A stretch of DNA of 64,000 nucleotides from assembly GCF_000420325.1 (NCBI RefSeq), contig NZ_ATUS01000001.1, positions 1,120,463-1,184,462 of the forward strand. The letters run 5' to 3'. Below are positions 49,738-64,000 of the stretch, one piece after another. Source of the stretch: Spongiibacter tropicus DSM 19543 (GTDB lineage: Bacteria > Pseudomonadota > Gammaproteobacteria > Pseudomonadales > Spongiibacteraceae). The notes under the pieces are model-generated. The model worked only from the letters and a program-made list of their open reading frames with translations. It was not told the DNA's origin and ran no database searches. A program made the position numbers and the translations under genes. Positions within the stretch are counted from its first letter, which is position 1. Every line of letters begins with the position of its first letter.

Positions 49738-50505
49738 TCAGGCGGCGTACTCCTGATCCAGATACGCCAGAATATCCGCCGACTCAAACATCGCCACACC
49801 GGTATTCGGGTCCACCAGATACGGCACCTGACTGCGCCCGGTCAACTCAAACAGGCGGCAGCGGTTGTCGCTGGTGATCGGCGCATCGGGAAAGAATTTT
49901 TCGCGCACGACTGGCGGCCCCATTTCCTGCCAGCGCGACTTGGCAAAATTGCGCAAATGATAGGGAAGCTCCAGCTCGCACAGGCGCTCGCGCACTAGCC
50001 GGGCATACGGACTGGACTCGAAACTGTACAACTCCAGCGGTTTAGCGGGCGCCACCGAATCGCGGGCACTCAAACCACGCGTGGCAGGCAAGGAACGCCA
50101 GCCGGTGGCAACATGCGAGCCCAGCAACTGGGCCGCGCGACGAACACCACGCGGTGCCTTTCGCCCATCGCCGTACTCCGCATACAGGTAGTCGATAATG
50201 TCTGCCGACTCCTGCAACACCACGCCGGTATTCGGATCTTCCAGCAGCGGGAACTGACTCTTGCCGGTTAAATCCAGCGCCTCGGTGCGAAAACGCATCC
50301 CGCCTTTGGGGCAGGGATAAACCATCGCATCCAGATCCAGCTCCGACAGCACTTCGCGCACCAGCCGACAAAAAGGACAGGCTTCAAACTCATAGAGCTT
50401 CAGCAGCTTTTCGGGCTTTTTTTGCGCCCCATTAAAGGCCGCCGTACCACGCCAGGCACGGCTGGAACTGGCAAAGACCGATGTCGCAACATCCAGCGCT
50501 TTCAT
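49738..50505 (-). CDS. Protein with two tandem GST N-terminal (thioredoxin-fold) domains
   Basis: A 255-residue protein with two copies of the GST_N/glutaredoxin fold. Copy 1 is at about 35-112 (LYEFEACPFCRLVREVL with a CPFC redox motif, ending ADIIDYLYAEYG) and copy 2 at about 150-253 (LYSFESSPYARLVRERL, where the redox motif has become SPYA, ending ADILAYLDQEYA). Both end with the same DPNTGV/ESADI block. There is no GST C-terminal helical domain. Copy 1 may be redox-active and copy 2 glutathione-binding only. GGGGGAG precedes the ATG. Confidence 0.85.
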   Translation of the reverse strand: MKALDVATSVFASSSRAWRGTAAFNGAQKKPEKLLKLYEFEACPFCRLVREVLSELDLDAMVYPCPKGGMRFRTEALDLTGKSQFPLLEDPNTGVVLQESADIIDYLYAEYGDGRKAPRGVRRAAQLLGSHVATGWRSLPATRGLSARDSVAPAKPLELYSFESSPYARLVRERLCELELPYHLRNFAKSRWQEMGPPVVREKFFPDAPITSDNRCRLFELTGRSQVPYLVDPNTGVAMFESADILAYLDQEYAA

Positions 50506-50626: not shown

Positions 50627-51019
50627 TCAGGCAAAGCGACCACGTACAGCCAGGGCAACTCTCGGCGCCAGCAGCGTCGTCAACAGCACCAACAGCCAGA
50701 GATTCCCGCCCTCCAGCCGGTAGGCAGCCAGCAACTCCTCTGCGTTCTTACCCTGCCACCAGCCAAAACTGAACTCGAACAGCAGGGTCATCAGCAGCCA
50801 GACGAGACCGAGACGCCAGCAGGCAAGGCTCTGCCCCGGCTTTATCCACGGCAAACTCAGAAACGCGACCAATAAAATCAACAGCGACAGCAGCACACCG
50901 CTGAGCGGTAGCCCAGCGTGCGCGCCAAATTGGGGAATCAGCACCGCTTCGCGAAACAGACCATTGGCCATCGCGAGAAGCAGAATGCCAAACCAAACCA
51001 CCACCGCCTTCAGCCACAT
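50627..51019 (-). CDS. Four-TM membrane protein of unknown function
   Basis: About 130 residues with four hydrophobic helices: AVVVWFGILLLAMANGLF, LSGVLLSLLILLVAFLSLP, LACWRLGLVWLLMTLLFEF and LWLLVLLTTLLAPRVALAV. A GGAG site is spaced for the ATG at 51019; an ATG two codons earlier is less well placed. A conserved-looking GWWQGKNAEELLAAYRLEGG loop lies between TM3 and TM4. Family is not recognised with certainty. Confidence 0.6.
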   Translation of the reverse strand: MWLKAVVVWFGILLLAMANGLFREAVLIPQFGAHAGLPLSGVLLSLLILLVAFLSLPWIKPGQSLACWRLGLVWLLMTLLFEFSFGWWQGKNAEELLAAYRLEGGNLWLLVLLTTLLAPRVALAVRGRFA

Positions 51020-51077
51020 AGCCATCTCCGGACTCCGTGAGGAAAAAGGGATACTCGGCGCTCACGCCCAACAAAGG

Positions 51078-51500
51078 CTAAGGCCGCTCCAGCTCCACAA
51101 ACGCGCCTTCCCAAATACTGTAGGTCAGCCCGTTATTGTGGATGAGTGTAGAAAACGGATGCACGGCCGAACCGGCACACTCTGCACGCAGCATCGACAG
51201 CGATTCACCTTCAAAACCCAATGCCGAAAACCTTAGCCGATAATCAAACTCAAATGCCGCCCTATCCACTTGCATCACAGAAAGCGCTGGCGCATCACAT
51301 TGCCTATTACCAAGCGTCAGTGCTGCATTTGAAATCGTCCCCACTTGTCCAAGTAAAGGCTCGATATCGTCGACACCCACGGCACTGACACCGGGAAACT
51401 TGGCGGATACGACGCGCCATTGGCACTCGTACCAAGGCGACTTTGAGCAAGCCGCCAACGCGAGTATCACAACGAAATTAACAATGCGTTTAATATTCAT
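51078..51500 (-). CDS. Small lipoprotein, unknown function
   Basis: A 140-residue protein with a signal peptide and lipobox LAAC (Cys18), so likely an outer-membrane lipoprotein. Four further Cys could form disulfides. The body shows short beta-type segments (FEFDYRLRFSALGFEGESL). No family recognised. Base composition is lower in GC than genes to the left, approaching that of the integron cassettes to the right. Confidence 0.55.
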   Translation of the reverse strand: MNIKRIVNFVVILALAACSKSPWYECQWRVVSAKFPGVSAVGVDDIEPLLGQVGTISNAALTLGNRQCDAPALSVMQVDRAAFEFDYRLRFSALGFEGESLSMLRAECAGSAVHPFSTLIHNNGLTYSIWEGAFVELERP

Positions 51501-51599
51501 TACTTCAATGAAGTCCGACTTATCTGCGAATGCCCAGCCAAAGCAAGCACTCGTCCTGACTAATCTACAACCTCTACTGACGCTACGATAGTTGGTGGG

Positions 51600-52145
51600 C
51601 TATTGTGCCGCTTGCGCCGCAGCCAGAGTCGTCGCAATCTGCTGCTGAGTGATATATCGGCCACCCGAGGACTCGCAGCAATAGAAAATATCCCCACCTT
51701 CCGACTTCTCTGAGACATACCGGGCCAACTCCAGCGCCTTTCTTGCATCTGGGCTTACACTGTCTCCACTCAGGTAAATATTTGCCAGTTGATAACGTGC
51801 AACCAAGGCATCGCTATTCCGATTAAAATAACCCGCCTTACCCACCGCACCGACAAGCAGACCATTCGCCCAATTACCTTCCGCCTCCTGCGCCGCAGCC
51901 AGCGAATACCATTTGATCGCCGTCGGAATATCCTTCTCCACGCCCACCCCAAGTTCATAGGCCACGCCCATACGCAACTGAGCCCAAGGCTCTCCTCGCT
52001 CGGCGGCAGGACGAAGAATACGAAATATCGTATTGTAATCGCTACGCTCCCACGCAATGTCGACCGTACGTTCACCGGGATTCGGATTTGGCCCAGCGCA
52101 GGCCGACAGACACAGCAAGACAACACATAGCAAGCTACGAATCAT
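51600..52145 (-). CDS. Sel1-repeat lipoprotein
   Basis: About 181 residues starting MIRSLLCVVLLCLSACAG, with lipobox LSAC. At least two Sel1-like/TPR helices follow: AAERGEPWAQLRMGVAYELG and DIPTAIKWYSLAAAQ, with AQLRMGxAYxxGxGVxxDxxxA matching the Sel1 consensus. The end (CCESSGGRYITQQQIATTLA) has two adjacent Cys. The start at 52145 follows GGGAGAGG. Sel1 lipoproteins usually scaffold envelope complexes. It lies just outside the cassette array, which holds another Sel1 protein. Confidence 0.75.
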   Translation of the reverse strand: MIRSLLCVVLLCLSACAGPNPNPGERTVDIAWERSDYNTIFRILRPAAERGEPWAQLRMGVAYELGVGVEKDIPTAIKWYSLAAAQEAEGNWANGLLVGAVGKAGYFNRNSDALVARYQLANIYLSGDSVSPDARKALELARYVSEKSEGGDIFYCCESSGGRYITQQQIATTLAAAQAAQ

Positions 52146-52233
52146 AAAAACCTCTCCCTTTACGCCATACTTATTATCAGCGTCCATCAGGACTTCTTTA
52201 ATCATTTGTCTTGCCGACAACTTAGGGGAAATG

Positions 52234-52312
52234 GGGTCAAGTCTTTCACCGTGCCTCAACTACAAAACTGGCGTTATTTCGTCTAGAAAGCGCTCGAGGA
52301 AAAACCTGACCC
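52234..52312. mobile_element. 79-bp miniature element with imperfect terminal inverted repeats
   Basis: Left end GGGTCAAGTCTTTC (52234-52247) and right end GAAAAACCTGACCC (52299-52312) are inverted copies matching at 12 of 14 bases. Ends of this kind (GGGGTCA-G/A-GT) flank short elements mobilised by REP-associated tyrosine transposases in gammaproteobacteria. It carries no gene. It lies exactly beside the eroded end of the integron array and probably disrupted the last attC. Confidence 0.45.
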
Positions 52313-52321
52313 TAGTATCTT

Positions 52322-52331
52322 TTTAGGTGTT
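52322..52331 (-). repeat. Eroded R'' box, array end
   Basis: TTTAGGTGTT matches the GTTAGGTGTT at the start of the last cassette (52691-52700, minus strand) except for the first base, so it is the R'' end of that cassette's attC with the conserved AAC mutated to AAA. The rest of the attC is missing or replaced by the miniature element at 52234-52312. Confidence 0.6.
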
Positions 52332-52335
52332 TGGT

Positions 52336-52695
52336 TCACAGCTCAGTGCTGACCTCGACGGCAGATTCAGTAACCACTGCGATAACCGTTGTGCCTGACG
52401 TAAAGTACACTGCAGGGCTGCTGGTAATAACCAGACCGTTCGGATAGACAGCCCGAAACTCCATTGCTGCTTCATCGTTTACCTCGAACACTCGCTCGCT
52501 ACCTGCCGGAATGTTGCCAAGGCTTTTGCTTTGCTCCCTCCAATGCGCAGTGACTTCGACGCTGATGTCCGATTCGTTTTTCACAACTAACTTTGGAGTT
52601 GCGACATAGGGAGCAGCAAAGTACACGAGCGAGCCTGCTCCAATGACGAGAATCGCAACAGTGACGAACAGCAGCTTCTTGACCACAAACAACAC
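52336..52695 (-). CDS. Cassette gene: membrane-anchored small protein
   Basis: A 119-residue protein starting at a GTG inside the attC core region. One N-terminal TM (KLLFVTVAILVIGAGSLVYF) anchors a beta-rich exported domain (LVVKNESDISVEVTAHWR, ERVFEVNDEAAMEFRAVYP). No family recognised. It is the last cassette of the array in the direction of transcription, between the attC at 52694 and the eroded R'' box. Confidence 0.6.
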   Translation of the reverse strand: MLFVVKKLLFVTVAILVIGAGSLVYFAAPYVATPKLVVKNESDISVEVTAHWREQSKSLGNIPAGSERVFEVNDEAAMEFRAVYPNGLVITSSPAVYFTSGTTVIAVVTESAVEVSTEL

Positions 52696-52743
52696 CTAAC
52701 GCCGCGTTCACCGCCTTGTCCGGTGCAACGCTTTGTTATAAGC
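52694..52743 (-). repeat. attC site 1
   Basis: A 50-bp site. On the minus strand it runs from R'' GCTTATAAC to R' GCGTTAGGT. The C-terminal codons of the upstream gene (KALHRTRR-stop) are encoded inside it, a common trait of cassettes. Its R'' is the exact reverse complement of GTTATAAGC at the start of the same cassette (53783-53791). Confidence 0.85.
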
Positions 52744-53103
52744 GTTGTCGATTTCAGAAGATATATCTTTCATGCCCTTACTTAGGGTAGAACTAATTGA
52801 TTCTTGAGGTATATATCTATTCATAACCACATCCAGCTTTTGCGCTTCAGGATGCCTAACCATCACATCAAGATATACCTTCAGCCTATCTGCTTTTGTT
52901 GTCGGTCGTTGAAGCTCCTTTTTAAGCTTCTCTTGAAACCTACAGATTTCGTCTTCGTCATCCCACTCATGCAATTCGCTGTACAAAATTCGAGCAAGCC
53001 TATTCTGAGTCCATCCTAGCTCAGCTATCAGACCTTTTATTTGCAACAAAAGCTCATGATATTCAGGTTTTGTCCCCATTTGTCTTTTCTTAACCCCTAG
53101 CAT
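52708..53103 (-). CDS. Cassette gene: cytoplasmic helical protein, possible DNA-binding
   Basis: About 131 residues with no signal or TM. The segment LIAELGWTQNRLARILYSE resembles a helix-turn-helix of the XRE type, followed by a charged helical stretch (CRFQEKLKKELQRPTTKAD). Met9 at 53079 is an alternative start. The C-terminus lies in attC 1. It is the third gene of a three-gene cassette and could be a regulator of it; that is inference. Confidence 0.55.
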   Translation of the reverse strand: MLGVKKRQMGTKPEYHELLLQIKGLIAELGWTQNRLARILYSELHEWDDEDEICRFQEKLKKELQRPTTKADRLKVYLDVMVRHPEAQKLDVVMNRYIPQESISSTLSKGMKDISSEIDNAYNKALHRTRR

Positions 53104-53110
53104 TGTCAAT

Positions 53111-53126
53111 GTCCCAGCGGGGACAA
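53111..53126. other. Hairpin in the internal promoter region of the three-gene cassette
   Basis: Arms TGTCCC and GGGACA with an AGCG loop lie between two divergent cassette genes and are followed by a T-rich tract on the plus strand. It could be an operator or attenuator for either gene. Confidence 0.35.
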
Positions 53127-53151
53127 TTTTTATTGAACTATGGAGATTACT

Positions 53152-53361
53152 ATGTCCAAATCAATGTCAAAAGCCGCTGCTGCTCGAATTCAGTCAGCGA
53201 CAGCTAAATCAAACGGTGGAGTCGTCCCGAAAGGTTCTTTTGCTGCAAGAGCGCAATCTGCAGCAAGCCAATCTGGTTCAACTCGCCCACCCAACGGCCC
53301 AAGCACAACCGGTAAGCCTTCTGGAGGTGGGCGAGGCAATAACCCTCCAAAAGGAAAGTAA
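53152..53361 (+). CDS. Cassette gene in reverse orientation: Ser/Ala/Gly-rich small protein (SMP-like)
   Basis: A 69-residue protein starting MSKSMSKAAAARIQSATAKS, with a repeated AARIQSATAKSNGG / AARAQSAASQSG unit and a Gly/Pro-rich, probably disordered tail ending in Lys. It resembles small stress-type proteins with seed-maturation-like motifs found in many bacteria. GGAGATT precedes the ATG. It is the only array gene on the plus strand, so it needs its own promoter. Confidence 0.6.
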   Translation: MSKSMSKAAAARIQSATAKSNGGVVPKGSFAARAQSAASQSGSTRPPNGPSTTGKPSGGGRGNNPPKGK

Positions 53362-53769
53362 CTAATTGCAGCTAGTCAGACTGCTTCTAAAGCGAGTCAG
53401 AAACTCTGACTCGCTTTTCTTTAGCTCTTTGTAACTGATCACTTCCATTGTTTTTTCTAATGCACATACACAAACCTGAGTTTTTTCAGCTTGTCGGTAA
53501 GAGTTCATTAGTATGCGCGACGAGTTTACACAACTATCTATAAGTTCATATTCAACATTAATCGGGTACCGTTGATCCTCAAAGAATATTTGGTCTGCTT
53601 TATAAGCTCCGAATGCGCCAATAAATAGAGCAGCTGTAGCCGACAAAAGCGGCTTCTTAAATTTCTTATAAGAGTGACCTGCAAATGACTCTTTGCATTC
53701 GCTACAAACAATATTCTCACCAAACTCAATTTTATTGTCTGTAGCGCAAGATGGACATTCGATCTGCAT
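53362..53769 (-). CDS. Cassette gene: zinc-ribbon membrane protein
   Basis: A 135-residue protein. CPSC at 5-8 and CSEC at 22-25 form an N-terminal zinc ribbon; a TM (LLSATAALFIGAFGAYKA) follows at about 41-60, and an exported C-terminal domain with four Cys (DSCVNSSR, VCVCALEKT, LTSCN). AAGGA precedes the ATG, 14 bases after the attC core. Resembles zinc-ribbon/DUF-type envelope proteins; function unknown. It is the first gene of a three-gene cassette. Confidence 0.6.
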   Translation of the reverse strand: MQIECPSCATDNKIEFGENIVCSECKESFAGHSYKKFKKPLLSATAALFIGAFGAYKADQIFFEDQRYPINVEYELIDSCVNSSRILMNSYRQAEKTQVCVCALEKTMEVISYKELKKSESEFLTRFRSSLTSCN

Positions 53770-53782
53770 GGATTTCCTTAGA

Positions 53783-53880
53783 GCTTATAACGCCCTGCGG
53801 CAGGGGCAGACAAAAAAGCGCAGCTTTTTGAATGTCCCGCCGCGTTTTTCAGCGGCAACTGCCCGCTCTTGTTATAGGGC
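53783..53880 (-). repeat. attC site 2
   Basis: A 98-bp site with R'' GCCCTATAAC and R' GCGTTATAAGC on the minus strand and a long imperfect stem between. R'' differs by one base from the complement of the cassette start GTTATAAGG at 54234-54242. Confidence 0.85.
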
Positions 53881-53884
53881 TTGC

Positions 53885-54226
53885 TTAAATACATGTGAAT
53901 GAGAAGGTTAACCGGCAATCAACGGTTCGAAGGATTTCATTCACCAATTTTGGAGCCTCCCAGATTTCTGAATCGCTTTCCGTGGTTAAGGACAAGAAAA
54001 TATCGCAATCTTTTAGAGCCACATCGTTAAGCCGATAAAAACTTATGATTGAGCCTATGACCTCTTCTCGAAGCTCGACCACACCGACATTAAACGAGTT
54101 ATCTTTCCCTTTTCGACACTCAGCGCCAGAAATCGCTTTCGACAATTCTGCTGCTTGGGCATCTGTCAGACATAGGAATCTAAAGGATGTAGATTCCGAA
54201 AATCCGTAGTCCCGGCATCCGCTCAT
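53885..54226 (-). CDS. Cassette gene: unknown cytoplasmic protein
   Basis: A 113-residue protein with no signal or TM and five scattered Cys. The pattern suggests an alpha/beta fold (DNSFNVGVVELREEVIGSII, LKDCDIFLSLTTES). No family recognised. AAGGA lies in the sequence just after the attC core, so the attC boundary also supplies the ribosome site. Confidence 0.55.
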   Translation of the reverse strand: MSGCRDYGFSESTSFRFLCLTDAQAAELSKAISGAECRKGKDNSFNVGVVELREEVIGSIISFYRLNDVALKDCDIFLSLTTESDSEIWEAPKLVNEILRTVDCRLTFSFTCI

Positions 54227-54233
54227 TGAGTAT

Positions 54234-54296
54234 CCTTATAACGCCAAAAGCAGGCTCGCCGCTTTTTGGCGTCGCACTGCCTTTTCTTGTTATGTG
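54234..54296 (-). repeat. attC site 3
   Basis: A 63-bp site with R'' CACATAAC and R' GCGTTATAAGG on the minus strand. R'' is the exact complement of GTTATGTG at the start of the same cassette (54945-54952). The TAA inside R'' serves as the stop codon of the upstream gene. Confidence 0.87.
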
Positions 54297-54919
54297 TTTT
54301 TTTCGAGATTTTCATATATTGTTCGCCCCCCATGAAAATCAGGTTGAGCGCAACTGAAAAAAACTTCTTGCTTCACTGTATATTTGTACGATTCTCTAGT
54401 TACGAGAGAGCTGAAATTAATCTCTAGTAGAACCACAATATTCGGCCTCTCCATTGGGCTTTTGGGGCTGCTTAAGTACTTGTTGAAAAGTTCCTTCTGG
54501 ATAGTCCCGGACTGCAATACCTCACCGGGAGCCAGTATCTGAGTGCCGTCTTCCTGATGTTCAATCTTTGTAACAACATCGTCCAAATACTTTTCACCAT
54601 ACCAAACTTTAAAATCGCTATTCTCGACTAGGACTGGAACATTCGACATATTTTTATAATAGAGAAAAATGCCGATAGGTGGGCTTTCACAGCTTAGCAC
54701 CTCAGAATCCATGGCCCACTTATGATCAACAAGTTTTATCAAGGGGTCGGTCAGCGAAATAAGTCCTCGCTGAACTGTAGTTAATGCCTCACTCACTTTT
54801 CTGGAAGATCGAACGGAAAGGTGGAGGCTTAAGACGGCGACAGATGCTATAACGTACGTCGCAATGTAATACCACTTTTCCAACGGTGAGATAGCTATCT
54901 CGATTAGTTCCTTTTCCAT
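54290..54919 (-). CDS. Cassette gene: single-TM protein of unknown function
   Basis: A 209-residue protein with one TM near 17-37 (YYIATYVIASVAVLSLHLSV) and a larger domain after it, with a beta-rich centre (VLVENSDFKVWYGEKYLDD). Probably an inner-membrane protein with a soluble domain of unknown fold. AGGA precedes the ATG. The stop is provided by the R'' box of attC 3. Confidence 0.6.
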   Translation of the reverse strand: MEKELIEIAISPLEKWYYIATYVIASVAVLSLHLSVRSSRKVSEALTTVQRGLISLTDPLIKLVDHKWAMDSEVLSCESPPIGIFLYYKNMSNVPVLVENSDFKVWYGEKYLDDVVTKIEHQEDGTQILAPGEVLQSGTIQKELFNKYLSSPKSPMERPNIVVLLEINFSSLVTRESYKYTVKQEVFFSCAQPDFHGGRTIYENLEKNT

Positions 54920-54944
54920 AAAATTATCCTGAGGTCATAGCGTA

Positions 54945-55006
54945 CACATAACGCCAAAAGCAGCCGCACTGCTTTATAGCGTCGGTTGCCTTTGCTTGTT
55001 ATATTT
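54945..55006 (-). repeat. attC site 4
   Basis: A 62-bp site with R'' ATATAAC and R' GCGTTATGTG on the minus strand. R'' matches the complement of the cassette start GTTATATTTC (55794-55803) apart from a small length change in the A-run. Confidence 0.85.
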
Positions 55007-55783
55007 TTCGATCCACCCAGCTACCCGATCATGCACTTTAGATCGCGTAGCAGCACTCAGAGCCAGTTCAAATCTGGCCAAACCATCTGGAATATTGCCA
55101 GTCAATTGCTTAACCGCGTACAACCAAAAATAAGCACTCTCAGGATCGAGGTTTTGATGAGAGCGATCTGAATAGAATTCAGCAAGCGCCAACATCGCAT
55201 TCAAGTTTAATTCTTCAGCTGCTCCTGTGAGCCAAAATTTAACCTTGTCCTTTTGTATATTCGCATCTAAATTAGCGCCGGGCTCTAAGCCATACATATA
55301 CATCATGCCGAGCTGCAACATTCCATTGGAATCACCATGCTCGACAGCCGAAAGAAGATACTTTTCGCCCTTTTTGGCGTCTATGATTTTATGGTCAAAA
55401 GTTAAGTTGAGGTAATAACTTCCGAGGAGCACTTTCGCATCTGTATTACCCATTTCAGATGCCCGTTCTAGTATAGATAAGGCCTCTTCAGTATTCTTGG
55501 GGACGCCAGTCCCATAAAGAGTTCTATAGCCAAGATCAAAAATTGCTGGGGGATAATCTTGGGCAACAGACTTCTTTAGCCATCTCATTGATATATCTTC
55601 GTGCCGAGAAAGGCCCCAGCCGTTCCAATAAGCTTGAGATACCATTAACTGAGCGCTTGCGTCACCTTTCTTTGCAGCCTCCATATAGAACTGTGTTGTG
55701 GCACGAAGTTCTTCTTCCGTAGGTTCCCCCGCTTGAGAAATTGTGGAGTAAATCAGTACGAAAATAAGTAGAATACGTTGCAT
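54974..55783 (-). CDS. Cassette gene: secreted Sel1-repeat protein
   Basis: A 269-residue protein with signal peptide MQRILLIFVLIYSTISQAG and five or more Sel1-like repeats (for example AQLMVSQAYWNGWGLSRHED, PAIFDLGYRTLYGTGVPKNT, GMLQLGMMYMYGLEPGAN). The start at 55783 follows GGGAA. Sel1 proteins often mediate protein contacts in the periplasm. The C-terminal residues are encoded in attC 4. A longer frame upstream crosses the attC and is rejected. Confidence 0.75.
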   Translation of the reverse strand: MQRILLIFVLIYSTISQAGEPTEEELRATTQFYMEAAKKGDASAQLMVSQAYWNGWGLSRHEDISMRWLKKSVAQDYPPAIFDLGYRTLYGTGVPKNTEEALSILERASEMGNTDAKVLLGSYYLNLTFDHKIIDAKKGEKYLLSAVEHGDSNGMLQLGMMYMYGLEPGANLDANIQKDKVKFWLTGAAEELNLNAMLALAEFYSDRSHQNLDPESAYFWLYAVKQLTGNIPDGLARFELALSAATRSKVHDRVAGWIEKYNKQRQPTL

Positions 55784-55793
55784 AGCTTCCCTA

Positions 55794-55889
55794 GAAATAT
55801 AACGCCTGCAACATGGGCGCACAAAAAAGCGCAGCGTATTGGGCGTCCCAGCGACCGCAGGGAGCGAATGCTTGCACTTGTTATGAGCC
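55794..55889 (-). repeat. attC site 5
   Basis: A 96-bp site with R'' GGCTCATAAC and R' GCGTTATATTTC on the minus strand. R'' is the exact complement of GTTATGAGCC at the array start (56232-56241). TAA in R'' is the stop of the upstream gene. Confidence 0.87.
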
Positions 55890-56204
55890 GCCAAGTTTAA
55901 ACAACCCAATGAATAGTAATACAAGAACCAGAAACGCAAATAGAACAATGAATGAACCTAAGATGCGCGCGACATTTTCGATAGTATTTTTTTCAAGATT
56001 GAACCCGGATAAAGCCGCACCTAAAACATAGCCCGATCCACACATTGCTGTGTGCCAAACATACGCAAAACTAAGAAGAACGATTGGTAGAACCCAGTTA
56101 CTCTTTGTTTCCCAATATGCTGCTCCAATAGCGGCGGTTAAGGTCACCCATTCCAACCATTTGAACCAATTTTCAATGTGATCTTTCCTAAATGCCCAGT
56201 GCAT
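55881..56204 (-). CDS. Cassette gene: small multi-TM membrane protein
   Basis: A 107-residue protein with hydrophobic segments at about 18-30, 37-55 and 80-102 (FIVLFAFLVLVLLFIGLF), so two or three TM helices. AAGGA precedes the ATG. First cassette in the array; its stop codon is the TAA of R'' in attC 5. No family recognised. Confidence 0.6.
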   Translation of the reverse strand: MHWAFRKDHIENWFKWLEWVTLTAAIGAAYWETKSNWVLPIVLLSFAYVWHTAMCGSGYVLGAALSGFNLEKNTIENVARILGSFIVLFAFLVLVLLFIGLFKLGGS

Positions 56205-56231
56205 AATTTTTGCTTCCTTGCGTAGGCCTAA

Positions 56232-56241
56232 GGCTCATAAC
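56232..56241 (-). repeat. Array-start core site (attI-like or deleted attC edge)
   Basis: On the minus strand GATGTTATGAGCC contains the recombined core GTT followed by the first bases of the first cassette, which exactly complement R'' of attC 5. The sequence upstream has no paired R'' within 150 bases, so this is either an attI or the scar of a lost attC. Confidence 0.6.
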
Positions 56242-56592
56242 ATCTTAATAACAAGCGCGCTCGGTTTGCCCTGAATACACTTTCCCCCTTGCACATCCAA
56301 GCCATTGAAATAATTGGACATTCACTCTGGTGAATCACTTTCCACAAAAAAATAACCGCGCGCGCACGGTTATTGGGATAACGAGGGGGTCTTATATATC
56401 CTGGCTTCATGTCCCTATGCGCCTGTTTTAATTGGGCTTTTCCGGGGAGGAATTGGAAAAGCGTGCCGTATTCACAGTGGAAATCCGTCTTTGGATTTCA
56501 TCGTCCTTTGACTATAGCAAGTGCACGGTAAATTGAAAGCCATTGGACGGCAGCAAGGCAGGCGGCGCGCCCGCCTTGCTGGTTAACAGCGT
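56242..56592. other. Gene-free region at the array edge
   Basis: About 351 bases. It holds GCTTGTTATTAAGAT next to the core site on the minus strand, a minus-strand terminator and a short purine-rich stretch (GGGGAGGAATTGG). This is where an intI gene would start on the plus strand, but no integrase frame is seen here; the next gene is a sulfotransferase on the minus strand. Confidence 0.5.
56345..56374 (-). terminator. Intrinsic terminator before the cassette array
   Basis: Arms AATAACCG and CGGTTATT with an 8-base loop; on the minus strand the stem is followed by TTTTTTT. It would end transcripts from the sulfotransferase side before they enter the cassettes. Confidence 0.75.
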
Positions 56593-57249
56593 TTATTTCA
56601 CGCCGTCGTAGCCGAACACGACCTCGGGGCCGTGTTGGATGATTTGATTGATGATGTCTTTGGTGGCTTCGGCATCGTTAATACGCGGGAAGTCGCTGTC
56701 TGGGACCGGCACATTTAGGAAGCGGCACAGGGGCTCCCAGCCTTCGGCGACGTTGAAGACGAGCAGGCGCGATGCTGGTATCACGTGTTTTACCTCGTCG
56801 ATGTGCTGCTGATAGCGCTGAATCAGATGCGCTTTGTCGTGCATGCGGTCGTCGAAGTAGTCGTTGATGGTGAGCTGCATAAAGCGCCCGAGTTCGACGC
56901 TGCGCAAGTAGTCGATCCAGTGGGGTGCAAAGATGGTCTCCTGCGTAGAGGCAAACCACTGCTCGGGATCGCGCACGGTGAGAATCACCTTGGCGTCGGG
57001 GTAGGCGTCGGCCAGCGCCTTGTAGCTGGTGCAGGCGGGAAAATCGACCGTGGAGTGAAAGCCTTCAAATGTGGCCGCCCAGTCTGGCTGTCCGGTCAGG
57101 GCATCGACCCAGTGCTGCCAATGTTGTGGCCCGCGCGGCAGGCATTCCACCATGTGATAACAGGGGCCAAAGCCCAGTTGTTCCAGCGCCGCCTTCATAC
57201 TCATGGTGCCTGTACGGCCAAAGCCCGCACCGATCACGTTTACGCTCAT
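56593..57249 (-). CDS. Sulfotransferase-family protein
   Basis: A 218-residue cytoplasmic protein. GAGFGRTGTMSMKAALEQLG at 7-26 is the P-loop-like PAPS-binding segment, and LTVRDPEQWFAS holds the conserved 3'-phosphate-binding Arg/Ser motif. The pattern matches the short bacterial sulfotransferase_4 (NAD-dependent-epimerase-unrelated) family. It should transfer sulfate from PAPS to a hydroxyl, though many members have no known substrate. It is monocistronic, followed by a terminator, with a 229-base empty gap upstream. Confidence 0.8.
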   Translation of the reverse strand: MSVNVIGAGFGRTGTMSMKAALEQLGFGPCYHMVECLPRGPQHWQHWVDALTGQPDWAATFEGFHSTVDFPACTSYKALADAYPDAKVILTVRDPEQWFASTQETIFAPHWIDYLRSVELGRFMQLTINDYFDDRMHDKAHLIQRYQQHIDEVKHVIPASRLLVFNVAEGWEPLCRFLNVPVPDSDFPRINDAEATKDIINQIIQHGPEVVFGYDGVK

Positions 57250-57478
57250 GTTTTTCGTCTCTTGATATCGCTGCCATTATTAGGAAGCCGCCGTACTGCG
57301 TGATCATCGCGATCACCGAGCAGAACCGGCAGCTAGTAGAGCAGTTTTTGTAGACGCAAAATATGAAATGGATCGCGATGTGTCGACGGCATTTTACGAA
57401 CACATTGACGCCACTGAATGCTGCTAATAATAGACAGACATTGCCCGCAGCACATGAACGCTGCGGACAATGACTGCG

Positions 57479-58495
57479 TCACGCCCTGGACAGGGTAATG
57501 GCGAGGTCTTCGATCAAATCCTCCTGGCCGCCAACGGTCCCCCGGCGGCCGAGTTCCACCAGCAGATCCCGCGCGGACACGCCGTATTTTTTCTCGGCAC
57601 GCTTGGCGAATAGCAGAAAAGAACTGTAGACACCGGCATAGCCGAGAGTCAGTGCATCCCGGTCGATACGCACCGGATGGTTCATCATGGGCAGCACAAG
57701 GTCTTCGGCAACGTCCATGATTCGGTATAGATCAATCCCCGACTCAACACCCATGCGACTCAGGACAGCGACCAGCACCTCCAGCGGGGTATTGCCCGCA
57801 CCGGCGCCCAGTCCTGCCGCTGAACCGTCGATGCGGACGGCGCCCGCAGCGATGGCAGCGACGGAGTTTGCGACGCCCATGCTGAGGTTGTTGTGGCCGT
57901 GAAAGCCAATCTCTGTGTCGGCGTTCAGCCCTTCGCGCAGACACTGTATTTTACTGCTGACCTCGTCGGGCAGCATGTAACCAGCGGAATCGGTGCAGTA
58001 GATACAGTTGGCGCCATAGGATTCCATCAGTTTCGCCTGTTCAAGCAGCGACTGGGCATCGAGCATATGCGCCATCATCAGAAAACCGACGGTGTCCATG
58101 CCCTTCTCCCTTGCGGCGGCGATATGCTGCTGGGACACATCGGCTTCTGTGCAATGGGTTGCGACCCGGATTGTCGACACGCCCAGTTCATGGGCCATGT
58201 TCAGGTGATCGACGGTACCAATCCCCGGCAACAACAGCGCCGAAATACGGGCGTTTTTCATCGCCGGGATGACGGCACTCAAGTACGCTTCGTCGCTGTG
58301 CGCGGCGAAGCCATAGTTTACCGAGTTACCGCCCAAACCGTCGCCGTGGGTCACTTCGATCAAGGGTACGCCAGCCGCATCCAGCCCACTGGCAATGCTG
58401 AGCATTTCTTCGATAGAAATCTGGTGCTGTTTCGGGTGCATACCGTCACGCAGACACATGTCGTGCAGGACCACCTGCTTACCGTGTAGATTCAT
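57479..58495 (-). CDS. mhpE: 4-hydroxy-2-oxovalerate aldolase
   Basis: A 338-residue DmpG/MhpE-type aldolase. [16 protein letters not shown] near the start holds the metal-binding Asp and catalytic His; [15 protein letters not shown] gives the metal-binding His pair. It cleaves 4-hydroxy-2-oxovalerate to pyruvate and acetaldehyde in the lower meta-cleavage pathway. The start at 58495 has GAGGT 7 bases upstream. It is 21 bases behind the acetaldehyde dehydrogenase gene; the two normally form a channelling complex. Confidence 0.93.
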
Positions 58496-58516
58496 TGCAA
58501 TACCTCGGGTCATTGT

Positions 58517-59422
58517 TCAGCGCGGGGGGAGCTGTAGAGTGTTTTCGTCGACGGACTCGGCAAACATTTCTGCCGTTCTCAGCCCGGCGGCCGTCATAAT
58601 GTCCAGGTTGCCCGCGTAGTTGGGCAGGAAGTCGCCGAGGCCTTCCACCTCCAGAAAAGCGCTGACGCGATTGCCGTCAAACACCGGCCCGTTCACCAGA
58701 CGATAGCCCGGCACATAGCGCTGCACTTCCGCCACCATGCGCTTCACGGACGCAGTAATGGCCGCTTCGTCAGGTGCCTCAGCCGTGAGGCAGTGCACGG
58801 TGTCGCGCATCAGCAAAGGCGGTTCCGCAGGATTGATAATGATGATGGCTTTGCCCTGTTTGGCGCCGCCAACGCTTTCGATGGCAGAGGCGGTGGTGCG
58901 GGTGAATTCATCGATATTTCGGCGCGTGCCCGGCCCGACTGACCGCGAGCTGACCGTGGCGACAATTTCACCGTAGTCGACGGCCTGCACCGCGGAGATG
59001 GCGGCCACCATAGGAATGGTGGCCTGCCCGCCGCAGGTGACCATATTCACGTTCATCGCCAGGTTGCCGGCGTGCTCAGACAGATTGACCGGGGGCACGC
59101 AGTAAGGACCAATCGCCGCCGGGGTCAGGTCGATCATGATCACCCCCAGCGCATTCAGCTTTTCGCTGTGCTCGGCATGGACGTATGCGGAGGTGGCATC
59201 GAAAGCGATGCGAATATCGTCATCCACCACCGAGGGCAGCAAGCCTTCGATGCCGGAGGTGGATACCTTCAGGCCATATTGCTGCGCCCGCTTAATACCC
59301 TCTGACTCCTCGACGCCAACCATCCACACCGGCTCGATCCACTCGCTGCGCAGCGCTTTCATCAACAGGTCGGTACCGATGTTTCCCGGCCCGATGATCG
59401 CCGCTTTCAATTTCTTCGCCAT
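58517..59422 (-). CDS. mhpF: Acetaldehyde dehydrogenase (acylating)
   Basis: A 301-residue DmpF/MhpF-type enzyme. GPGNIG at 11-16 binds NAD and [13 protein letters not shown] carries the catalytic Cys130. It oxidises acetaldehyde from the aldolase to acetyl-CoA with NAD and CoA. Start at 59422 is preceded by GGAGAG; an in-frame ATG six codons upstream is possible. With the aldolase it forms the leftward operon of a divergent catabolic locus. Confidence 0.93.
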
Positions 59423-59520
59423 ACCGCCAGCACTCTCCATTCAATGCCATCCCACTGCGACAGAGCTTCCCGACGACTGCGGGGCGCCTCTGCCTTGCCG
59501 AATCAATATATCACTCAATA

Positions 59521-59537
59521 ATATTGTCATACAATAT
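59521..59537. promoter_or_regulatory. Palindromic operator in the mhpF/hydroxylase divergent promoter
   Basis: ATATTGTCATACAATAT is a perfect 7-3-7 palindrome, 49 bases before the hydroxylase ATG and 99 before mhpF. The core ATTGTCATACAA recurs at 63584-63595 in the Rieske/asparaginase divergent promoter. The TTGT-N3-ACAA form is typical of GntR (FCD) family sites. No regulator gene for it lies in the window. Confidence 0.7.
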
Positions 59538-59585
59538 CACAAGGTGCTACATTGGCCTCAACTGTACATTCGGGAGAGAGTTGTT

Positions 59586-60809
59586 ATGGCCCACACTGAT
59601 CAGGTCATTATTGTTGGAGCAGGGCCGGTAGGTGCCGTACTCGCCCTCGCATTGCGCAAGATGGATATTCCCGTCTGCCTGATTGAGGCACTCGACGAAC
59701 CGGAAATTGATTGTCGGGCAGCCTCCTGCCACCCGCCGACTGTTGCCATGCTCGACGATCTGGGGCTGCTGCCGATTGGCCTGGAGGAAGGGCTGGTATC
59801 CCCGGTTTTCCATTACCTGGATCGCGTAACCGGCGAGCTGATCGGCAAGTTCGATATCGGCGCGATGCAGACGCCGCCTGCCCACCCCTATGTGCTTCAG
59901 TGGGAACAGTACAAGATTGTGTTTGCGGTTCTGGACCTGCTGGAAAAGGACAGTGGCGCCAACGTCCGCATGTCGACGCAGTTGCTGGGTATTACCCAGG
60001 ATGACAATGGTGTCTGCGCCTCGGTACGCAATGCCGATGGCGAGCAGGAAGACATACGCGGGCGGTTTCTGGTCGGCAGCGATGGCGGACGCAGCACCGT
60101 GCGCAAGCTAATGGATATCGACTTTGAAGGCTTCACCTGGCCGGAACGTTTTATCAAGATCGACACGCGTTTCGACTTTTTCCAGCTCGACGCCGACATT
60201 AGCAATCGCAACTACTTTTCCGACCCCGACGAGTGGATGAACCTGTTTAAGGCGCGAGGTCCCGACGGCGAGGGAATGTGGCGCTCCGTCAGCCCCACCC
60301 GCCCCGAGCAGACCGAGGAAGAGCTGCTGGCACCGGAAGCGCTGGAGGCCAAGCTGCAGAAATTCTGCCCCTCAGCGCAGCCCTACGACATTGTGACCGT
60401 TGCGCTGTATCACGTTCATCAACGCGTGGCGGCGACCTTTGATAAGGGGCGCGTTCTGCTGGCCGGTGATGCGGCTCATGTGAACAACCCGGTGGGGGGC
60501 ATGGGCATGAACGGCGGTATTCATGACGCCATCAATCTCGCCGACAAGCTCCGGCAGGTATGGTTTGACGGCGCGGATTACTCGCCGCTGTTCGCACACT
60601 ACACCCGGCAACGGCGGAAAGGGCAAATCGACTATGTGCAGGCCCAGAGCATTCAGAACAAGGAAACCCTCGGCGAACGCGACCCGGTACTCCGCGCCGA
60701 GAAGCTGGCCGCCATCCGCCATCAGTCAGAAACCCCGGCGCTGCACGACGCGTTTATTCGTCGCTCCTGCATGATCGACAGCCTTAATGATGCCAACGCG
60801 ACCCCCTGA
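59586..60809 (+). CDS. FAD-dependent aromatic hydroxylase (PHBH/MhpA-like)
   Basis: A 407-residue group A flavoprotein hydroxylase. GAGPVG at 11-16 binds the FAD ADP part; GRVLLAGDAAHVNNPVGG near 290-305 binds the ribityl chain (GD motif), followed by MGMNGGIHDAINLADKL. It is shorter than MhpA (about 550 residues) and lacks its C-terminal thioredoxin-like domain. GGGAGAG precedes the ATG; the frame extends upstream to 59136 through the divergent promoter, which is rejected. Likely hydroxylates an aromatic acid to start ring cleavage. Confidence 0.88.
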   Translation: MAHTDQVIIVGAGPVGAVLALALRKMDIPVCLIEALDEPEIDCRAASCHPPTVAMLDDLGLLPIGLEEGLVSPVFHYLDRVTGELIGKFDIGAMQTPPAHPYVLQWEQYKIVFAVLDLLEKDSGANVRMSTQLLGITQDDNGVCASVRNADGEQEDIRGRFLVGSDGGRSTVRKLMDIDFEGFTWPERFIKIDTRFDFFQLDADISNRNYFSDPDEWMNLFKARGPDGEGMWRSVSPTRPEQTEEELLAPEALEAKLQKFCPSAQPYDIVTVALYHVHQRVAATFDKGRVLLAGDAAHVNNPVGGMGMNGGIHDAINLADKLRQVWFDGADYSPLFAHYTRQRRKGQIDYVQAQSIQNKETLGERDPVLRAEKLAAIRHQSETPALHDAFIRRSCMIDSLNDANATP

Positions 60810-60837
60810 CCCGAGAGTGAATTGAGAGGTACTGACC

Positions 60838-61365
60838 ATGGCTACAGCCAGACACCCCCGCCCCCCCGAACTGAAAGACGCCTCGCTGGACGACATCATG
60901 AAGCGCTATGTCGCCCGCTTCAAAGACCGCAGCCCCGACTGGGACGCCTTTGCCGACGCCAACATCGACGGCTACCGCCGCGCACAGCATCGCTTTGTGG
61001 GCGCCGGTGCGTCGGGTAAGCACAGTGACGACACCATTGTGCCCGCCGGAAACTTCACGGTATCGATTATGCTGGTGCCACCCGGTCAGGCGAATGCACC
61101 ACATACCCATGAGGTTGAGGAAATTTTCTTCGTACTGCAGGGGCGCTGCGTAGTATTTATTGAAGATGAGGAAGGCAACCGCCTGTCGGAAGAGCTAGAG
61201 CCCTGGGAAATGATCTCCTGCCCGCCCGGCGTGATTCACGGCTATATCAACGAAACTGATGAGCCGGTATATCTGCAGGTCATGCTCGGTCGCGGCCAGC
61301 CCGAAACGGCGGGCTTTACCGATCAATCCCTGTTCGATAACCGGGAGCGCCACCTGAAAGACTAG
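60838..61365 (+). CDS. Cupin-domain protein, possible dioxygenase
   Basis: A 175-residue protein with an intact cupin motif 1: Gly83, His89, His91, Glu95 and Gly102 at exactly G-x5-H-x-H-x3-E-x6-G, and His134 in motif 2 (PPGVIHGYINE). The metal set (three His, one Glu) supports a non-haem iron or manganese enzyme. It follows the hydroxylase by 28 bases and may cleave the ring of its product or act as an isomerase. An N-terminal helical segment (KRYVARFKDRSPDWDAF) precedes the cupin. Confidence 0.82.
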   Translation: MATARHPRPPELKDASLDDIMKRYVARFKDRSPDWDAFADANIDGYRRAQHRFVGAGASGKHSDDTIVPAGNFTVSIMLVPPGQANAPHTHEVEEIFFVLQGRCVVFIEDEEGNRLSEELEPWEMISCPPGVIHGYINETDEPVYLQVMLGRGQPETAGFTDQSLFDNRERHLKD

Positions 61366-61411
61366 CCGCCGATACCACGCCTCCATCAAGCTGACACACC
61401 GAGGGCCTCCG

Positions 61412-63202
61412 ATGTTTACCACCCGTCCCGAAATCCGTGGCACCTTCGGTGTCGTCGCCTCCACCCACTGGATTGTGTCATCGGTGGGTATGTCCATTCT
61501 GGAGCGTGGCGGCAATGCCTTCGATGCCGCCGTGGCGGCGGGCTTTACCCTGCAGATCGTCGAACCCCATTTGTGCGGACCTGCGGGAGAAGTCCCCATT
61601 CTGTTTCATGCGGCAGGCGCCGACAGCCCCAGTGTGCTCTGCGGCCAGGGCGTTGCGCCCGCCGCGGCCACGATAGAAGCTTTTAAACGTCAGGGAATGG
61701 ATCTGGTGCCCGGCTCGGGGCTGATGTCGGCGGTCGTTCCCGGCGCCTTCGATGCCTGGCTATTGCTGCTTCGCGATCACGGCAGTTTCGATCTGAAAGA
61801 CGTTCTGGAACCGGCCATTCACTATGCAGAGGCCGGACACCCACTGTTGCCCGGCGCCGCGCGCGCACTGGAGGAAGTGGCACCGATATTTCAGAACGAA
61901 TGGCCCTCCTCCGGCCCGGTGTGGCTGCCAAACGGGCAGGCGCCGAAAGCGGGAAAACTGTTCCGCAACCCCACACTCGCCGCCACCTGGCGTCGCATCC
62001 TCAAGGAAGCCGGAAACGGATCGCGAGAGCAGCGCATTGATCGTGCACGGCGCGCCTGGTCGCAAGGGTTTGTCGCGGAACAAATCGACCATTTCTGCCG
62101 CACGCAGTCATTGATGGATTCCAGCGGCGACTGCCACGGCGGTCTGCTCACCGGCGACGATATGGCCGCCTGGGAGGCCCATTACGAAACCCCGGTGAGT
62201 TACAACTATCGGGGCTGGACGATCTGCAAAACCGGCCCCTGGGCACAGGGCCCGGTGATGCTTCAGGCACTGTCGCTGTTGTCGGGCTACGACATTCAGT
62301 CACTGGATCCGAATGGCGCCGAGTTTGCACACCTGACACTGGAGGCCATCAAGCTCGCCATGGCCGACCGGGAGGCCTATTACGGCGACCCGAATTTTGT
62401 CGACGTGCCGCTGGCGCAATTGCTGAGCGATGACTATGCGGCCGAGCGCCGCAAACTGATTACGCCGCGCGCCTCCCAACAGCTTCAACCGGGCGTGGTA
62501 AACGGTTTTGAGGAACAGGTACAACGCGCACTGGCACAAGTGCGGGAAGCGACCGACGAGGCCGCCGGTCTGGGCATTGGCGAGCCGACTATGGCCCACC
62601 TGCAATCGACCACCAAGCCGGGCGATACGGTGCACGTCGATATTATCGACCGCTACGGCAATATGGTCTCGGCAACCCCTTCCGGGGGCTGGCCGCAGTC
62701 GTCGCCCACGCTGCCCGGACTCGGTTTTGCCCTGAATACCCGCGCCCAGATGTTCTGGCTGGAGCCGGGCCTGCCCAGCAGCCTGGCACCGGGCAAACGC
62801 ACCCGCAATACGCTCACGCCCACCCTCGCCCTCCGCGAGGGTCGCCCGGCACTGATCTGCGGCACCCCTGGCGGCGACCAGCAGGACCAGTGGCAACTGC
62901 TCTTGCTGCTGCGGCATATCGATCACAGTATTCCCCTGCAGCAGGCCATCGACATGCCGCTGTTCCACAGCCTGCACGCCCCGGCATCGTTCTATCCCCG
63001 TGAGGCGATGAGCGGCGTTGCAGTGGTAGAGGAAAATATGGGGAGCGAGATGATTGAAGAGCTGCGTCGGCTGGGTCACGACCTGCGTATTGCCCCGGCC
63101 TGGTCAGCGGGTCGACTGACAGCGGCGAGCCGGGATGCAGACGGCCTGCTCAGTGCAGCGGCAACGCCGCGCCTGATGCAGGCCTATGCCGTGGGGCGCT
63201 GA
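61412..63202 (+). CDS. Gamma-glutamyltransferase-family hydrolase
   Basis: A 596-residue Ntn-hydrolase. The small-subunit start GDTVHVDIIDRYGNMVSATP matches the self-processing site, with the predicted nucleophile Thr406. The large-subunit part begins TFGVVASTHWIVSSVGMSIL and has RGGNAFDAAVAAGFTLQIVE. Unlike periplasmic GGTs there is no signal peptide, so it should act in the cytoplasm, probably removing or adding a gamma-glutamyl group on a catabolic intermediate. It sits in a putative operon with the hydroxylase and cupin. Confidence 0.85.
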   Translation: MFTTRPEIRGTFGVVASTHWIVSSVGMSILERGGNAFDAAVAAGFTLQIVEPHLCGPAGEVPILFHAAGADSPSVLCGQGVAPAAATIEAFKRQGMDLVPGSGLMSAVVPGAFDAWLLLLRDHGSFDLKDVLEPAIHYAEAGHPLLPGAARALEEVAPIFQNEWPSSGPVWLPNGQAPKAGKLFRNPTLAATWRRILKEAGNGSREQRIDRARRAWSQGFVAEQIDHFCRTQSLMDSSGDCHGGLLTGDDMAAWEAHYETPVSYNYRGWTICKTGPWAQGPVMLQALSLLSGYDIQSLDPNGAEFAHLTLEAIKLAMADREAYYGDPNFVDVPLAQLLSDDYAAERRKLITPRASQQLQPGVVNGFEEQVQRALAQVREATDEAAGLGIGEPTMAHLQSTTKPGDTVHVDIIDRYGNMVSATPSGGWPQSSPTLPGLGFALNTRAQMFWLEPGLPSSLAPGKRTRNTLTPTLALREGRPALICGTPGGDQQDQWQLLLLLRHIDHSIPLQQAIDMPLFHSLHAPASFYPREAMSGVAVVEENMGSEMIEELRRLGHDLRIAPAWSAGRLTAASRDADGLLSAAATPRLMQAYAVGR

Positions 63203-63547
63203 TCAGCGCTCACTGGCATTAATCCATACGGCATCATTAATAATGCTGACCGGCCAAGTGCGCAAGGGTTTGCGGCAGGGGCGCTTCATCGCCTCGCCGG
63301 TTTTCACATCAAAGCTGCCGCCGTGAACCGGACAAATCACCAGACCGTCTTCGAAGCGCCCTTCCGACAGTGACGCAATGGCGTGGGTGCAGTCGTCATC
63401 CACCGCGTAGAACTCCCCGTCGAGATTACACACCACGATCGCATCCATGCCCTCCGGATGAAAGCGGCGCATCTCGCCAGCAACAAAACCGTCCACATCG
63501 CACAAACGAATACCGGCATCTACCGCCAAAATTTCAGAGTTGCTCAT
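63203..63547 (-). CDS. Rieske [2Fe-2S] ferredoxin
   Basis: A 114-residue soluble Rieske protein. CTH (Cys53, His55) and CPVH (Cys72, His75) ligate the cluster at standard spacing, flanked by GEFYAVDDDCTHA and GGSFDVKTG. This is the BphA3/NdoA-type electron carrier to a ring-hydroxylating dioxygenase, so such an oxygenase is expected nearby outside the window. A TTG one codon upstream is also possible as start. It is convergent with the GGT-like gene. Confidence 0.9.
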   Translation of the reverse strand: MSNSEILAVDAGIRLCDVDGFVAGEMRRFHPEGMDAIVVCNLDGEFYAVDDDCTHAIASLSEGRFEDGLVICPVHGGSFDVKTGEAMKRPCRKPLRTWPVSIINDAVWINASER

Positions 63548-63583
63548 CAAAAAAGCCTTCCTATCGAGTTAACTTTATGTATT

Positions 63584-63595
63584 ATTGTCATACAA
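63584..63595. promoter_or_regulatory. Second copy of the shared operator, between Rieske and asparaginase genes
   Basis: ATTGTCATACAA is identical to the core of the palindrome at 59521-59537. Here the outer arms are less symmetrical. It lies 36 bases upstream of the Rieske start and 57 upstream of the asparaginase start, so one regulator could control both directions. Confidence 0.65.
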
Positions 63596-63652
63596 AGTTA
63601 TTTTGGTCAATACGCGATCGCTGACGATCATCGACGAACGGGAAAACGAGCC

Positions 63653-64000
63653 ATGCGCTATCTGCAGCTCATCAATGCCGGCGGCACAATTACCTCCAAG
63701 AGCAACGACCAAGGTGTTCTTGAGGGCGCCGGTCACTCGCTACTGGCAGGTGTAAACCTGGACAGCTTGCCGCTGGCGGTAAGAGAAAAAACGGTTTATC
63801 GCGGACTGAGTGAAGACCTCAGTCTGAATCAAGCCAGCGCCATTGCCGGGGCCGCACTGGACGCGGTGCATCAGGACGATGTCGCTGGTGTCGTGGTGAC
63901 ACACGGCACCGACACCCTTGAGGAAACCGCGTTCCTGTGTGACCTGTCGCACGACGGCGGCAAGCCTGTGGTTTTCACTGGAGCCCAGCGCGCCCCCGAA
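63653..64000 (+). CDS. L-asparaginase-family amidohydrolase, N-terminal part (cut by window end)
   Basis: 116 codons are present and the frame is open at the last base. It starts MRYLQLINAGGTITSK, with GGTIT (Thr12, the first catalytic Thr of type I/II asparaginases), and has VVVTHGTDTLEET at 81-93 with the second Thr/Asp/Lys-type motif (THGTDT). No signal peptide, so probably cytoplasmic. It is divergent from the Rieske gene and shares the operator. An amidase role in catabolism of an amide or glutamyl-type intermediate is possible. Confidence 0.88.
   Translation, partial: MRYLQLINAGGTITSKSNDQGVLEGAGHSLLAGVNLDSLPLAVREKTVYRGLSEDLSLNQASAIAGAALDAVHQDDVAGVVVTHGTDTLEETAFLCDLSHDGGKPVVFTGAQRAPE

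Follow-up and report, generated by a model that had tools for sequence, protein, structure and literature searches.

A stretch of 64,000 nucleotides from Spongiibacter tropicus DSM 19543 (the window; C1:1120463-1184462 of the source genome G000, 3.95 Mb in 7 contigs) was analysed around an array of integron gene cassettes. The array, here called P3, comprises six cassettes on the minus strand, the last with a truncated attC site, and is headed by a leader sequence with an attI site of its own; no integrase gene (intI) adjoins it. The genome has at least seven copies of leader and attI together, termed the unit; seven were found on contig C1, one of which, P1, carries the integrase IntI-B. Cassette positions are given in window coordinates, and comparisons were made in a set of 21 genomes of the family, the relatives being coded G001, G011, G012 and so on.

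The P3 array and its attI

The homology between units stops at the crossover of the attI core (Table 1). An open reading frame (ORF) runs through attI in P1, P2, P3 and P4, and none of similar length was present in G014 or G003, while the ORFs of other units were unlike it; a conserved leader peptide was therefore rejected. The G+C content falls from about 0.57 in the surroundings to 0.44-0.46 across the array. An Rfam search at gathering threshold and a transfer RNA search of the window gave no matches.

The first-pass annotation, made from the letters alone, had described five attC sites in minus direction. These were recovered by the covariance model R2, built from 13 attCs of other arrays in the source genome with the P3 array excluded; its matches in the 64-kb window at E<=10 were exactly attC1-attC5 and no others. 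With the model R1, made from 18 attCs of the genome including the five of P3, their E-values were 4e-18 to 1e-8. A structure scanner scored the five sites 15.3-19.3, and 200 dinucleotide shuffles of the 4-kb region, scanned on both strands, yielded a mean of 0.02 matches scoring >=14, with a maximum of one per shuffle and a top score of 15.7. The hairpin was paired in 97.2% of cells across the 18 attCs, and the covariation of 0.722 compared with a shuffle mean of 0.129 and was far above slid controls too. To these sites a sixth, truncated attC was added. A genome-wide scan with R1, in which 150 of 1495 candidates were scored, gave at least 24 attC matches (E<=0.05), the P3 array accounting for five.

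The attC-like hairpins on the bottom strands, as anticipated, were obtained in four of the five minimum-energy DNA folds, in which the R arms paired; in that of attC4 the arms were not so paired, and the bottom-strand energy of attC1 was no better than that of shuffled sequence (z -0.51). The base outside the stem, read on the gene strand, was G in 16 and C in 2 of the 18 attCs. The extrahelical base in Vibrio and aadA attC sites is C.

The earlier observation that each cassette start is matched by the R'' box of its own attC held, the own match being best or tied in all five cases when compared with other cassettes. Its tally of three exact matches, one mismatch and one length-shifted match was revised over the 7-base RYYYAAC box to four exact of five, with one mismatch in cassette 4. 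Four genes (cassette ORFs 1, 2, 3 and 5c), rather than the three reported, end in attC DNA.

Among the cassette proteins, Sel1 was the sole Pfam match above cut-off, and G019 has a 59% homologue of this cassette 2 protein about 1 kb from its orphan attI, encoded on the other strand. Cassette 4 has a counterpart in G014, in the B integron that carries intI, with 84% nucleotide identity from the exact boundary and different neighbours. In cassette 5, the plus-strand ORF 53140-53361 (73 aa) runs against the direction of the other genes; it had two Pfam matches below cut-off, and a terminator-like hairpin follows it at about 53387-53424. A PADLOC match for the ORF 52708-53079 of this cassette was weak (E 0.0074) and was not used.

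Table 1. Positions of the array features (window coordinates) and of the leader-attI units on contig C1 (last seven rows)
Feature	Position	Strand	Description
attC1	55797-55886	-	R2 E 3e-13
attC2	54946-55004	-	R2 E 4e-6
attC3	54236-54295	-	R2 E 2.5e-8
attC4	53785-53877	-	R2 E 1.4e-9
attC5	52694-52741	-	R2 E 4.7e-7
attC6, truncated, R'' remnant	52323-52333	-	from sequence; sixth site, at far end of array
Cassette 1	55803-56240	-	107-aa protein, ORF 55881-56204; hydrophobic by eye; no Pfam family
Cassette 2	54952-55802	-	Sel1-repeat protein, ORF 54974-55783; Pfam Sel1 E 5e-17
Cassette 3	54242-54951	-	209-aa protein, ORF 54290-54919; no Pfam family
Cassette 4	53791-54241	-	113-aa protein, ORF 53885-54226
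Cassette 5	52700-53790	-	three ORFs: 53362-53769 (-), 53140-53361 (+), 52708-53079 (-)
Cassette 6	52323-52699	-	119-aa protein, ORF 52336-52695; attC truncated
Leader-attI unit P3	56238-56542	-	about 87% identical to P2, common 5' limit
attI core, 37 bp	56238-56274	-	crossover G 56241 / T 56240; 35/37 identical to attI of P1
Conserved leader block, 58 bp	56383-56440	-	78% identical to P1 leader; most surroundings not alignable
Terminator-like hairpin in leader	56351-56374	-	consensus scan only
79-bp element	52234-52312		21-nt imperfect (76%) inverted repeats; adjoins truncated attC6
GST-like gene (glutathione S-transferase)	49738-50505	-	left flank of P3; next to gene beyond P2 in G011, G012, G020
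P1	C1:1399725		with intI (IntI-B)
P2	C1:1203891		without intI
P3	C1:1176700		without intI; array of the window
P4	C1:800140		without intI
P7	C1:906199		without intI
P8	C1:1852146		without intI; degenerate, 26/37 core positions match P1
P9	C1:1877931		without intI; degenerate, 25/37 core positions match P1

Dispersed units and one matching integrase

No intI or remnant of one was found in the window (own-genome scan; tblastn, best E 0.65), as had been read from the letters. A search of the rest of the genome, proposed at the same time, located the nearest full-length intI on C1 at C1:1400053-1400994, 223 kb from P3, where it stands with a near-identical attI. The encoded IntI-B is full length and intact, scores 384.6 bits against the TIGR02249 cut-off of 265, and carries the tyrosine-recombinase motifs. 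A LexA-type box, CTGN10CAG, is present in its promoter region and in those of three B-type relatives (4 of 4 examined), and was not found at P2, P3 or P4. In a homologue search with IntI-B, the matches listed were mostly distant integrases, and records from near genomes are possibly missing from the list. In the intI tree, five integrases with a B-type attI and L070 formed one group (98/95), which L072 joined next (100/99). Since L070 had no B-type attI within 13 mismatches and L072 a single weak site with 12, a B-type attI is not established for the whole clade.

Two further integrase loci were rejected as the supplier, and for both a role as actor is possible. The gene at C3:9652 is open along its length and 48% identical to IntI-B, but no B-type attI was found within the locus; that at C6:216126-217072 is broken into two parts, contains a stop and has no matching attI. 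The former (C3:9652-10581; L002, L022) is the third integron integrase of the genome, divergent but of full length, with a radC-like neighbour (by eye) and attC-like palindromes just upstream. The latter, a broken A-type intI beside a lipA-like gene (by eye), lies in a piece, C6:216126-218170, that resembles C2:338028-342572 in having a similar transposase (IS1595-like by eye) at the contig end; the C2 piece has three attCs, and the two are probably one integron split by insertion and assembly. A B-type attI was not found at the arrays C1:1053421-1056716 and C2:338028-340401.

In the family, the P4 leader was matched in 14 of the 21 genomes at E<=0.05. Units with a correctly placed attI numbered 29, from 13 genomes: 4 had a complete intI-B, 2 an intI remnant (G005_998k and G005_878k) and 23, spread over 12 genomes, no trace, including G003_C16, whose upstream sequence is too short to judge. 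Four of the 20 loci from the leader search (L245, L247, L248 and L253) were left out of this count, attI not being at the right distance, and an intI remnant was also seen at G005_2634k, a leader piece without attI. An ORF of at least 60 codons begins 2-100 nucleotides past attI in 16 units from the leader search (ORF starts are given without a control comparison), and the G+C content falls after attI in 14 of these 16. For the pairs G005_998k/G013_C30_B and G003_C55/G003_C16 gapped comparisons were used, the ungapped profiles being one base out of register. P8 and P9 lie 26 kb apart in direct orientation, an arrangement resembling that of P2 and P3.

Platforms compared among relatives

The GST-like gene and the gene on the right-hand side of P2 are separated by about 64 bp in G011 and G012 and are close together in G020 as well; in the source genome the distance is about 33 kb. 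The 33-kb insert is made up of three ORFs (50627-52166) and the arrays P3 and P2, with about 23 kb of other genes between the two. It is absent at the locus in G011, G012 and G020, these being the three relatives where the two flanking genes were observed together. Gene order thus varies among relatives; a fixed order across distant relatives is what the first-pass annotation had named as speaking against its reading. Units P2 and P3 form direct repeats of 312 bp with 87% identity, their attIs being 27 kb apart, and the 23-kb segment between the attI repeats might be excisable as one unit. This segment (56543-64000, on to about C1:1200400) encodes a sulfotransferase and, by eye, an aldolase, a dehydrogenase, a TonB receptor and transporters. 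Between the GST-like gene and the array are three minus-strand ORFs, one of them Sel1-like, that G011 and G012 lack between these neighbours; a scan at a low threshold gave no attC-like site around them, and they are possibly old cassettes.

Orthologous platforms without intI allowed the cassettes to be compared between species. Between G011_C7 and G012_C6 a 5.5-kb stretch with 94.6% identity reached 9-11 nucleotides past attI, beyond which there was no match (E<=1e-4) in the 644 nucleotides left on the G012 contig. G011_C8 and G012_C1 were 89.4% identical until 4 nucleotides past the attI core; their first cassettes differ, and past these follow a common 1-kb segment and a common right flank (92.6%). 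With homology breaking off at the attI crossover and unlike first cassettes beyond it, these attIs without an adjoining integrase must have gained or lost cassettes after the sister species separated. P4 and G011_C7 have both flanks in common, with 4.5 kb and 1.8 kb between them that gave no blastn match at E<=1e-4. As P4, G011_C7 and G012_C6 are all without intI in the aligned flanks, their ancestor was probably without intI there. At E<=1e-40, only an A-type intI was found in G011 and none in G012.

Units within one genome were in several cases very alike. P4 was 92% identical to P1 over 277 bp (89% over 304 bp in another alignment), compared with 62% in a gapped alignment of about 440 bp, or 75% in the alignable 158 bp, to its orthologue G011_C7, the flank being 80% identical. 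The orphan unit of G014 was 93% identical to the intI-bearing one over 237 bp, and three units of G005 were 82-85% and three of G003 92-96% alike. On a tree of 28 units, with G009_C5 left out, the five genome groups jointly required 4 label changes, the minimum, against a shuffled mean of 12.3 (7 ungrouped rows not counted); taken singly, G000 and G005 each needed 2. Long branches were flagged for P2/P3 with P8/P9. The approximately unbiased test rejected the clades P4+G011_C7+G012_C6 (p 2e-52) and P1+G011_C5 (p 1e-7). The closeness of P4 to P1 rather than to its orthologues suggests concerted evolution of the sequences. Gene conversion would be the simplest cause of such likeness within a genome; alternatively, the platform may have been replaced at the same site.

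Interpretation and relation to known integrons

The first-pass annotation classed the locus as a cluster of attC sites lacking an integrase (CALIN). That the array is integrase-less stands, and the label is the one that standard software would give: there are at least two attCs supported by sequence and structure, and no integron integrase nearby. What had been overlooked are the leader and attI (56238-56542), so that the array has attI at its head, as in a complete integron, and lacks the intI adjoining it. With a near-identical attI at an intact integrase and five other integrase-less units on C1, the locus is therefore more than an attC cluster, namely an integron platform that has no integrase of its own. 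We consider it likely, from the sequences compared here, that P3 is a satellite platform which has its own attI and six cassettes and on which the distant IntI-B probably acts in trans. The platform would have originated through copying of a leader-attI segment to another location or through deletion of intI from a complete integron. Its attI would have received the cassettes one by one, an integrase from elsewhere, most likely IntI-B, recombining folded bottom-strand attCs into it in trans, perhaps to the present day, and the leader may drive their transcription. Some copies within one genome would then have been homogenised, probably by gene conversion.

The dispersed docking sites and the single matching enzyme gene suggest that one enzyme can serve many sites. 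For the genus we propose, with distinctly more reserve, a distributed integron, in which one integrase would serve several dispersed integrase-less leader-attI platforms that capture cassettes locally and are matched to its attI by concerted evolution, the unit being a satellite element of the integron.

Several points weigh against the satellite reading of P3. Service in trans by IntI-B is put forward as the best explanation, and recombination was not directly observed. P3 has no orthologue among the relatives seen, hence there is no comparison of before and after, and its nearest copy, P2, is 13% diverged. A consensus sigma-70 site that could mark the cassette promoter Pc was not found in or around the P3 leader (56150-56620). 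The crossover G is lost in the attI of P8 and G011_C8, and covariance-model attC matches (E<=1) were obtained at only 8 of the 20 leader loci. G007, G009 and G012 have B-type attI units and no intI at E<=1e-40, and many platforms may therefore now be idle. The orthologous units of G011 and G012 are 90% and 89% identical, closer than paralogues (76% within G012), so concerted evolution is not seen between these sister species and homogenisation is not general; P7, moreover, groups with the G011/G012 units.

The unit could also be a small mobile element, of the kind of a miniature inverted-repeat transposable element, that spreads attI sites at which cassettes arrive later. Three G003 units of about 427 bp start at one common base in differing flanks, and P7 immediately follows a gene that has matches in 20 of the 21 genomes, at a synteny break relative to the four relatives compared. 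Terminal repeats and target duplications were not seen, although no systematic search for them was made, and the sole empty site resolved on both sides has a 33-kb insert with other genes. The G003 contigs, furthermore, may come from another species or from contamination: pyk on contig C105 is 95% identical to that of G011, against a 39% match in G001 of the same genus and none in G002, which also weakens G003 as proof of orphan units in a second genus. We hold this origin to be doubtful.

That P3 is a dead relic, a complete integron minus intI with its array frozen, thus an ordinary CALIN through decay, appears unlikely. According to PMC11389934, CALINs are considered to originate when an integrase is lost or an array is translocated, and attC6 is truncated. 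In G011 a leader-attI without intI stands at the locus matching the upstream flank of P1, from which we naturally infer that intI was lost at this counterpart of P1, and two G005 units retain intI remnants. P2, P3 and P4, however, have no trace of intI; P2 and P3 share a 5' limit and thus seem to have been copied from a unit that itself lacked it; the attI core is kept in 35 of 37 positions relative to P1 although most of the leader has diverged; and at other integrase-less platforms the cassettes changed after speciation. Entry of the cassettes at a non-attI genomic site (attG-type), which would give a CALIN far from any integron and for which such insertions are mentioned in PMC12444791 and in references of PMC11389934, is very improbable, as the entry point is a 37-bp attI in a leader of about 300 bp partly homologous to an intI-bearing integron.

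CALINs (Cury et al. 2016, as presented in PMC9024848, PMC12444791 and PMC11389934) are described as degraded or translocated attC arrays that can be mobilised in trans. P3 resembles them in having an attC array without adjoining intI, and differs in keeping attI and leader and in being of a type present in several copies. According to PMC9024848, IntegronFinder detects attI for class 1 only; such platforms would therefore be reported as CALINs, and the phenomenon could be widespread and unseen. Outside class 1, attI sites are still poorly characterised according to the literature consulted (PMC9024848, PMC3607928, PMC9229058, PMC11389934, PMC12444791 and PMC12901181). In titles and abstract openings of the open PMC literature, subscription journals lying outside the search, no description of multi-copy integrase-less attI platforms or of concerted evolution of attI was found, and novelty is provisional. 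If some CALINs are attI-bearing satellites, integrons can deliver captured genes to several places on the chromosome, and a network of attI sites, instead of a single locus, would be the unit in which integrons evolve. A genome-specific attI common to dispersed sites would also be a natural data set for the co-evolution of IntI and attI.

In the sedentary chromosomal integrons of Vibrio and Xanthomonas, one intI goes with one attI. The system described here is similar in its attI, its mostly unknown cassettes and the LexA-type box at intI in the B integron, and differs in having several attIs per genome and one or no intI-B. Xanthomonas, in the account of PMC12444791, carries at ilvD an intI that has been inactivated, with CALINs situated at further loci that are partly conserved. 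Integrase loss and arrays at several chromosomal loci of fairly conserved position are thus common to both; attI copies at the CALINs and concerted evolution are not mentioned in that account as far as its available text goes, and the two might be one phenomenon. In class 1, a single cassette in the construct attI1-aadB-attI1 was excised at 100% frequency (PMC12901181). The direct attI repeats of P2 and P3 likewise enclose DNA, but across 27 kb, and their segment, which is not a single class 1 cassette, persists.

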